NCBI GenBank assembly: GCA_001871075.1
Contig: MNUP01000109.1
Coordinates: forward strand, 1 to 15,798
Source: Candidatus Desantisbacteria bacterium CG1_02_49_89
GTDB lineage: Bacteria > Desantisbacteria > UBA1551
Reading direction: 5' to 3'
Length of the DNA: 15,798 nt
In this document: positions 1 through 13,014 of the stretch, one piece after another
Layout of the letters: each line of letters starts with the position of its first letter
Position numbering within the stretch: position 1 is the first letter of the stretch
Notes under the pieces: generated by a model
Told to the model about the DNA's origin: nothing
Seen by the model: only the letters and a program-made list of their open reading frames with translations
Database searches by the model: none
Translations under genes and position numbers: made by a program

Positions 1-64
1 TGATTACGGTGATTATAATTAAAATTATGGTGATTTAAAAATAATCACTGTAATCATATTTTGA
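1..64. repeat. Family A repeat cluster downstream of fabG
   Basis: Contains the family A unit TGATTACGGTGATT at 1-14, a decayed copy at 25-35, a reverse-oriented unit AATCACTGTAATCA at 43-56, and a half unit TGATTAC at 62-68 that runs over the fabG stop codon. The opposite arms can form a stem, so it could act as a weak terminator or mRNA end after fabG, but there is no clear U-tract. The cluster may continue beyond the window. Confidence 0.75.
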
Positions 65-3067: not shown

Positions 3068-3197
3068 ATTTCCTCCTTGAATGATGATTACGGTGATTTC
3101 TAAATGATGATTACGGTGATTATTTTTAGTATCAAGAGTCAAGCAGAAAATTAAACTGTGCTAATCTGCGTTAATCTGCGTCTGATTTTTACGTGTT
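3068..3197. repeat. Family A pair and family F repeats between degT and rpmF
   Basis: Two same-orientation family A units at 3085-3098 and 3108-3121 lie directly upstream of the rpmF ribosome site. A different repeat, family F, follows at about 3158-3185 with two copies of TAATCTGCG in tandem, close to the degT stop codon at 3198-3200. No promoter could be assigned with confidence. Confidence 0.75.
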
Positions 3198-5480: not shown

Positions 5481-5526
5481 ATTCAAAAACGGGGGAGGTC
5501 ATAAGCCGGGTCCTGTCCTCTTAAAA

Positions 5527-5595
5527 CAGTGAGTAGTGATGAGTGAAGAGCGAAAAGTCAAAGACTTCCCACTTTTCACTTTACACTTTACACTG
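5527..5595 (-). repeat. Family D repeat inserted at the P19 position of rnpB
   Basis: Two 33-base arms (5527-5559 and 5563-5595) of AGTG/AAAGTG-type units run in opposite orientation around a 3-base loop. They lie between the 3' strand of P2 and the 3' strand of P4, inside a short closing CCTC/GAGG stem. The same unit type occurs at the ilvC-leuA junction (9565-9593). Confidence 0.8.
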
Positions 5596-5737
5596 TATCT
5601 TGAGGTGCGATCATTTATCTACGCGACCTACCCGGAACCCTGCGATAAGCAGATGGCGAGCGGCCTTAAGTTCCTTTTTTGGTCTTGCTCCGGATGGGGT
5701 TTGCCGTGCCTCCGATGTTGCCATCGGAGCGGTAGGC

Positions 5738-5818
5738 TCTTAACCTCCGCCCCGACTTTCGTCGGGGCGAGACCTCGCCTCGCTTGCCCTGCCTTATCGG
5801 CAAGGATGGCGGGCGGGT
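5738..5818 (-). repeat. Hairpin repeat inserted in L13 of rnpB
   Basis: About 81 bases replace the short P13 loop expected in class A RNase P RNA (closing stem 5819-5822 with 5734-5737). The insert contains the hairpin GCCCCGACTTTCGTCGGGGC (5750-5769) and the 18-base string TCGGGGCGAGACCTCGCC (5762-5779), which is found again at 6177-6194 upstream of rnpB. Confidence 0.75.
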
Positions 5819-6027
5819 GCCTTTTCACCCTTACCGGAAAAAGGAAGCGGAAAATTGGGACTGTCCCTTTTTTTCCGCCGTTTTTTCCGGCGGTATTTTT
5901 TCTGTGGCACTTTCCATTCCCGGCGTTCTGCCGGGATCCCTGATTGTTCAGGGCACCCTGCTCTTTGGAGCCCGGACTTTCCTCCCCGATGTTACATCGG
6001 AGCGACCGCAACCTCCCCCGTTTAACA

Positions 6028-10587: not shown

Positions 10588-10606
10588 GTTCCCCTCCCTG
10601 TGCAGA

Positions 10607-10686
10607 GATTACGGTGATTTTCAACTAATGATTACGGTGATATTAAAATAATCACTGCAATCATCTTCTAGAAATCACTGTAATCA
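10607..10686. repeat. Family A four-unit inverted cluster
   Basis: Two units in one orientation (10607-10619 and 10629-10641) face two in the other (10650-10663 and 10673-10686). The outermost reverse unit ends 4 bases from the lpxC-fabZ stop and the other arm ends about 20 bases before the ilvC start. The arms can form a long stem that would separate the two genes. Confidence 0.85.
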
Positions 10687-10690
10687 GTTT

Positions 10691-12024: not shown

Positions 12025-12984
12025 TTAAAACTTCGCTGCCACCGATACCCTGTGGGTATATCCTAAATCTCCGTAAGGCACCATCGCATAATCAATGTCT
12101 ATTATGCCTATTTTGAAACCGACGCCGCAGGTTAAACCGGACAAAGCTCCCAGCGTGTTGTTTATCGCGTTGTTATACTTATATCCTGCCCTTATGGCAA
12201 GCACAGGATGGACCCAGTATTCAATACCTGCTCCTATCGCCCAAATGCTATCCAGGATGCTATAGTTAAGGTCAGCCGCGAGCGTCAACTTACTGTCAGC
12301 AGACTTGTTGGCAATGCCTATCCTCAGGTTCATAGGCAGGATGTTCGCCTCTGTGATGAACGGGGCTTCATAACCCATATTCTGCAGGGCAAGACCCGCA
12401 ACCAAACCTTCCTTATTTAACTTGTATTGCAGGCCAAGGTCTGCGACTATACCAAGCGCGGACTTGTCATCCAGCTGCTGGTTGATGATCTTGGCTGTTC
12501 CGCCAAGGTTCAGGCGCTCTGAGAGCGCCCTGGCGTAGGATATGGCTATTGCAAGGTCGTTTGCGGGCACCGTAGTCCCAAGCAGGCCTCCGGCAATATC
12601 TCTCCTCTCAATATCCGTGATATACAGGTAGGTTATGCCTGCCCCTATCGTACCGCCAAAAGCCTGCTGGCAATAAGCAAGGTACTCGTACCTGATAGCC
12701 TGAAACCACTCTGTATGGGTGAATATTACCTGCTTCCCTTCTGCAAGGGACAGGCCTGATGGGTTCCAGTACAGGGCATTGATATCATCTGCTGCAGCAA
12801 CAAAAGCTTCGCCCATTGCAACCGGTCTTGAACCAACTCCGAGCTTTAAGAAGGTTGCGCCTGTAGTTCCTGGCCCGGCGGAAAAACAGTTGAAAGTTAA
12901 AAGTTGAAAGGTGAAAGCAAAAATAACCACGGAGACACAGAGGCACGGAGAAAGTTTTATTTTTTGAACTTGAATCTGTCTCAT
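12025..12984 (-). CDS. PorV/PorQ-like outer-membrane beta-barrel protein
   Basis: A 319-residue protein of the PorV/PorQ (UPF0164) type. After a signal peptide (about 1-36, hydrophobic core 14-34), the mature start GTTGATFLKLGVGSRPVAMGEAFVAAADDINALYWNPSGLS is the family hallmark (FadL-like N-terminus). The rest is alternating amphipathic strands ending in VSVAAKF with a terminal Phe, as in barrels assembled by BamA. PorV is a type IX secretion shuttle in Bacteroidota; relatives elsewhere have unknown roles. ATG at 12984 has AAGGA upstream, whereas the longer frame gives a poor start. The core of the signal peptide is encoded by two repeats. The upstream gene ends in a sorting-like domain, which suggests a functional pair. 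Confidence 0.88.
   Translation of the reverse strand: MRQIQVQKIKLSPCLCVSVVIFAFTFQLLTFNCFSAGPGTTGATFLKLGVGSRPVAMGEAFVAAADDINALYWNPSGLSLAEGKQVIFTHTEWFQAIRYEYLAYCQQAFGGTIGAGITYLYITDIERRDIAGGLLGTTVPANDLAIAISYARALSERLNLGGTAKIINQQLDDKSALGIVADLGLQYKLNKEGLVAGLALQNMGYEAPFITEANILPMNLRIGIANKSADSKLTLAADLNYSILDSIWAIGAGIEYWVHPVLAIRAGYKYNNAINNTLGALSGLTCGVGFKIGIIDIDYAMVPYGDLGYTHRVSVAAKF
12887..12954. repeat. Families E and I inside the PorV-like signal peptide region
   Basis: Family I (12887-12917) consists of GTTGAAAG/GTTAAAAG/GTGAAAG units on the plus strand and family E (12925-12954) of CACGGAGACACAGAGGCACG. Both lie wholly within codons 11-33 of the PorV-like gene, encoding LSPCLCVSVV (11-20) and AFTFQLLTFNC (23-33). 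Confidence 0.75.
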
Positions 12985-13014
12985 AACTTTTCCTTCTTGA
13001 ATTTTATTATTATA

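Follow-up and report, generated by a model that had tools for sequence, protein, structure and literature searches.

Introduction

Short repeats dispersed in bacterial genomes have been described in several forms. Heptanucleotide tandem repeats are known from the cyanobacteria, from Xanthomonas (GGGNATC) and from the Beggiatoaceae (TAACTGA) (PMC4692102, PMC4679880), and a term search of these two papers gave no mention of signal peptides in either. In Yersinia, YPAL/RU-2, a MITE-like structured element of 168 nt, forms part of the leader of YPO1552 (PMC2229807), and this case was the sole match found in the literature for a repeat-derived signal peptide. The present analysis concerns a window (the whole stretch analysed, 15,798 nt) of the genome of Candidatus Desantisbacteria bacterium CG1_02_49_89, in which a PorV/PorQ-family gene carries two repeats, E and I, in its signal-peptide codons. 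The original prediction covered this one gene, but the phenomenon spans at least 24 leaders: the patching of export leaders by short tandem arrays is systematic in this genome.

The PorV/PorQ-Family Gene and Its Leader

The window protein matches the NCBIfam profile NF033709 (PorV/PorQ family) with 193.6 bits (E 6e-57, cut-off 90), scores under the equivalog cut-offs of PorV proper and PorQ proper, and has only distant relatives (up to 44% identity) in named genomes. The features of the locus are as follows.

12028..12984, minus strand: PorV/PorQ-family outer-membrane protein gene, 319 codons (stop 12025-12027, ATG at 12984; NCBIfam profile), bearing the repeat-built signal peptide
12985..12998, minus strand: ribosome-binding region (AAGAAGGAAAAGTT) 5' of the ATG, also present in paralogue C130
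12955..12984, minus strand: n-region MRQIQVQKIK, codons 1-10 (codon map)
12919..12954, minus strand: E octamer array and conserved flanks, codons 11-22 (LSPCLCVSVVIF); core 12927-12951, flank positions about 12919-12955
12886..12918, minus strand: I heptamer array, codons 23-33, AFTFQLLTFNC (codon map)
12877..12885, minus strand: c-region FSA, then mature GPGTTGA (sequence and paralogue alignment)

The ATG looks right as the start codon, because the Shine-Dalgarno-like site before it (GAAGGAAAAGTT-ATG) has a counterpart in C130 (GAAGGAAAA-ATG). An alternative GTG start within E (codon 19) was rejected, since no purine-rich site lies upstream of it whereas the ATG has a conserved one. The mature-region dN/dS between the window gene and C130 is 0.086 and therefore indicates strong purifying selection. 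A Sec signal peptide has a charged n-region, a hydrophobic core and small residues before the cleavage site; the window leader has R, K and K in its n-region and a maximum 12-residue hydropathy of 2.68, the value in the orthologue from genome G001 being 2.68 and that in paralogue C139 2.57. The family motif AGPGTTGA begins at codon 36 (codon map), and signal peptidase I probably cuts after the c-region FSA; the residue at -3 before A36, however, is F, which does not give a classic cleavage context. The leader would presumably work as an export signal.

E is a period-8 array of three units (CACGGAGA CACAGAGG CACGGAGA), and I is a period-7 array of four units (CTTTCAC CTTTCAA CTTTTAA CTTTCAA). 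Together they make up nearly the whole hydrophobic core, in agreement with the predicted repeat origin of most of this segment (E codons 11-22 plus I codons 23-33). The predicted limits of I were correct, but E does not end at codon 20; it reaches codon 22, so that E and I abut.

Period-7 and Period-8 Arrays in the Genome

The genome (2.48 Mb) was searched by patterns, together with a 650-kb sample of stretches. E was found at 70 places (<=3 mismatches) against 17 for the reversed control, a slightly looser E pattern (<=1 mismatch) at 64 against 1, and I at 28 against 4. Both strings are dispersed repeats, as had been claimed, and their presence in the window leader is far beyond chance; a lack of further genomic copies, which was to count against the prediction, is contradicted by this abundance. 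The E consensus is about 35 nt long, with flanks conserved at a few A/T positions alone (A-rich). The statement that E-like strings turn up in other genomes was also right: of 289 further genomes, 16 contain the E family, all of them belong to other families, and one holds 119 copies. A four-unit array of another repeat family, H, (TTACACN)n, was matched (<=1 mismatch) in this genome only. The E string searched literally in published papers gave no match. One E-rich genome, G202 (L318-L329; 68% GC, unrelated family), has about 119 copies of the 25-nt E text, mainly outside convincing leaders.

E and I are members of a larger population. A 372-kb sample contained 106 arrays of period 7, whereas Markov sequence gave 0, and the families are many, including CTTACAC, CTTTCAA, CATAATT, GACGTAC, CAGTGTC, ATTGCAA and others. 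In the 650-kb sample 214 of 283 arrays of all families are intergenic. With units of 5-11 nt in several copies, dispersed, above chance and mainly intergenic, the arrays agree with repeats of the STRR/LSSR type; E differs from MITEs and palindromic elements (RPE, YPAL), which have terminal inverted repeats or a long stem-loop and about 100-200 nt, as against about 35 nt in the E consensus.

It might be supposed that T- and C-rich hydrophobic leader codons give heptamer-like strings by chance or convergence, for TTT and CTT codons are favoured in leaders and the G001 leader is itself weakly periodic (P 0.04). However, exact array families are common to leaders and intergenic copies, long identical runs are shared between paralogues, and E exceeds its control by tens of copies. 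Moreover, this genome has 28 period-7 arrays per 100 kb (650-kb sample), as compared with 1.2 in G001, its sole relative from the same order, and with 0-7.5 in ten further genomes, of which small samples were taken. Coincidence is therefore hardly credible as a general account; it is contradicted for E and H and is possible for I in G001.

Some further repeats were observed. One 20-kb stretch, L137 (3410-19228), is denser in arrays than elsewhere, its ORFs containing eight or more in-frame arrays of period 7 or 8. A family spaced by 23 nt (TGATTACGGTGATTATT, reverse ATAATCACTGTAATCA) takes up several intergenic regions of the window (1-62, 822-887, 3083-3125 and 10604-10690), and its copies are often paired, either head to tail or inverted.

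Arrays Inside Housekeeping Genes and RNase P RNA

Arrays are also read in frame within housekeeping genes, where both heptamer and octamer types are seen.

L136 11266-11305: in-frame array in leuS, a nine-residue insert relative to G001
L112 8248-8406: in-frame array in valS
L148 16975-17014: in-frame array in mnmG
L144 824-857: in-frame array in tsaD
L168 (G000:C122:3985): in-frame array in an ispG-like gene

The LeuRS array is a clean insert that the G001 enzyme, 71% identical, does not have, and no other direct evidence speaks as strongly for insertion as against drift. In addition, the RNase P RNA (RF00010, 201.8 bits; window 5486-6020, minus strand) has some 73 additional nt at about 5518-5590, between model positions 335 and 336, and these are largely heptamer-like repeats (TTTACAC and CACTACT types). 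Cyanobacterial rnpB likewise has STRR inserts.

Leaders as a Coding Site of Arrays

Arrays that lie inside ORFs (those of 150 aa or more) are concentrated near the start. Their density per kb is 2.7 in intergenic DNA, 0.42 in codons 5-45 and 0.065 in mid-gene, and codons 5-45 exceed mid-gene with an odds ratio of 6.5 (Fisher P 2e-9), the gene calls being simple ORF picks. Because part of the sample had been picked for PorV or E content, the ratio was also determined on contigs picked by number only, where it was 4.1 (P 8e-4). As the intergenic density is higher than the N-terminal one, leaders are tolerant sites, not hot ones, and tolerance accounts for the array data without any advantage to the carriers.

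The carriers are diverse. Heptamer arrays are present in the leaders of no fewer than 24 exported proteins here, including eleven PorV-like paralogues, DegP (TIGR02037), a SurA-like isomerase, an ApbE-like lipoprotein whose leader is an array almost throughout, LamG proteins and several others (names without a profile result were read from the sequence). In the H family, 30 of 46 places were inspected; 15 of these 30 arrays lie in ORFs, all in the sense direction, and 14 of the 15 in leaders of different proteins. Seven I arrays are also located in leaders. The pyrimidine strand is the one read in a ratio of 17:5 at N-termini versus 7:22 in mid-gene (P 2e-4). Even the array-poor G001 contains a leader array, in an LptA-like protein (L192 17729-17758). 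In G202 and other E-rich genomes sampled, N-terminal matches were mostly in doubtful ORFs, so the use in leaders looks particular to this lineage.

Arrays of non-triplet units close to start codons recall phase variation, in which N-terminal heptamer arrays would vary in copy number, shift the frame and toggle surface proteins, and an N-terminal enrichment of SSRs is described for prokaryotes, at least as Lin and Kussell are cited in PMC4692102. Nevertheless, such switching is very unlikely here: slippage is discouraged by the shortness of the arrays (3-4 units) and by their imperfect repetition, most arrays are intergenic, and some lie in the LeuRS and SurA-like genes, where an off state would be harmful.

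Paralogues and the History of the Leader

The window, C130 and C139 proteins are about 85% identical, yet their leaders differ in array family. The window leader has E plus I and the C130 leader an I array without E; in C139 this position is occupied by an H array, preceded by the same upstream sequence and the same n-region start (MKKIIF). When the mature parts are placed on a tree (18 rows, branches starred), the window protein pairs with C139 (97/87), followed by C130, C75 and G001; in this order the leader types therefore alternate as I (+E), H, I, H and I-like, and over the whole tree the leader type changes nine times or more.

Such exchanges could be taken to mean that leader arrays are active signal-peptide cassettes, spread between leaders by gene conversion or by dedicated mobilising machinery because they make functional export signals. 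The leaders of C139 and C75 have 38 identical nt in common with the remaining gene 68.6% identical, C139 and C79 share 30 identical leader nt with the remaining gene 51% identical, and half of the inspected H arrays are in leaders. This explanation is nevertheless improbable, for the majority of the sampled arrays (the 214 of 283) are intergenic and some are within LeuRS, MnmG and TsaD.

The preferred reading is that arrays rebuild leaders that already exist. The original prediction had proposed the de novo creation of an export signal from a repeat, but the closest full-length paralogues (C130, C139 and C75) and the G001 orthologue all have a hydrophobic leader at the same place, directly before AGPGTTGA or GGPGTTGA. 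The signal is therefore ancestral and was rebuilt by repeats, and its creation de novo is not supported. The proposed comparison with orthologous leaders gave a divided answer. I is common to C130, and the G001 leader resembles the I part as protein (FAFHLLSFTCFAAG versus FAFTFQLLTFNCFSAG), where a degenerate I array may be present, so the I part of the window leader may be old. E, looked for in the other leaders inspected (30 of its 70 copies), was present in the window gene alone, and I would have preceded E.

The PorV, DegP and SurA-like families consist of exported proteins. Array-free leaders are found in the PorV paralogues C127, C106, C82 and C78 of the same genome, and DegP, which has an H array in its leader here, has an array-free one in G001. 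Export is therefore older than the arrays, which were added to leaders already in place.

Frame-Independent Peptides and a Proposed Mechanism

Because neither 7 nor 8 is a multiple of three, an array of units of these lengths yields, as computed, the identical cyclic peptide in all three frames. The H array gives LHLTPYT and the pure I array LSTFNFQ in the sense direction, and the opposite strand of each has a stop, which partly explains why the H arrays in ORFs are all sense. E is open on both strands, as LCASVPLC or as the charged AQRHRGTE. On the pyrimidine strand stops are rare and the peptide is hydrophobic to semi-polar, of a kind that a Sec leader would tolerate, so that this strand suits leaders; open purine-rich variants are found in linkers (LKVESSKLKVE) and enzyme loops.

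The following course is proposed. Short arrays of tandem 7- and 8-nt units would have multiplied in the lineage, apparently by insertion and not by growth through slippage, and landed mostly in intergenic DNA. An array that landed in the signal-peptide codons of an exported-protein gene would often have been retained, because of its frame-independent peptide and the tolerance of the Sec leader, and over time leader segments would have been replaced, extended and exchanged between array families. In the window gene, the I array was probably already part of the leader, as in C130, and the E array would then have replaced or lengthened the n/h part to give a leader of about 36 residues. Array identity, recurrence in leaders, paralogue swaps, enrichment, orientation and one clean in-frame insertion were observed directly, and the overall explanation, that arrays spread, are tolerated in existing leaders and rebuild them, is considered probable. 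A stronger version, in which frame-independent heptamer arrays are portable cassettes copied from leader to leader and continually rebuild export leaders because they work, is doubtful.

Comparison with Known Systems

In many genes of one genome, tandem repeats of a noncoding type can overwrite an export signal while the gene is kept. The reason offered is simple: a unit whose length is not a multiple of three has a single reading whatever the frame, and on one strand this reading is hydrophobic. The genome is thus a natural experiment on the minimal sequence needs of a Sec leader and on the gain of coding sequence from repeats.

As in the case of YPAL/RU-2, a dispersed repeat is read in frame and contributes to the signal peptide of an exported protein (PMC2229807), but there one gene was highlighted, whereas here tandem arrays of 21-35 nt from several families occupy at least 24 leaders and are swapped between paralogues. 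The Rickettsia palindromic elements are similar in being in-frame insertions in conserved protein genes, retained where tolerated; they are larger, however, with long stem-loops and terminal inverted repeats (PMC2229807), while the arrays here consist of tandem 7-10-nt units concentrated in leaders and loops. The heptanucleotide repeats of other bacteria are likewise dispersed, mostly intergenic, of few units and patchy across phyla (PMC4692102, PMC4679880), and the present genome differs from them in having many unrelated families side by side, recruited into leaders.
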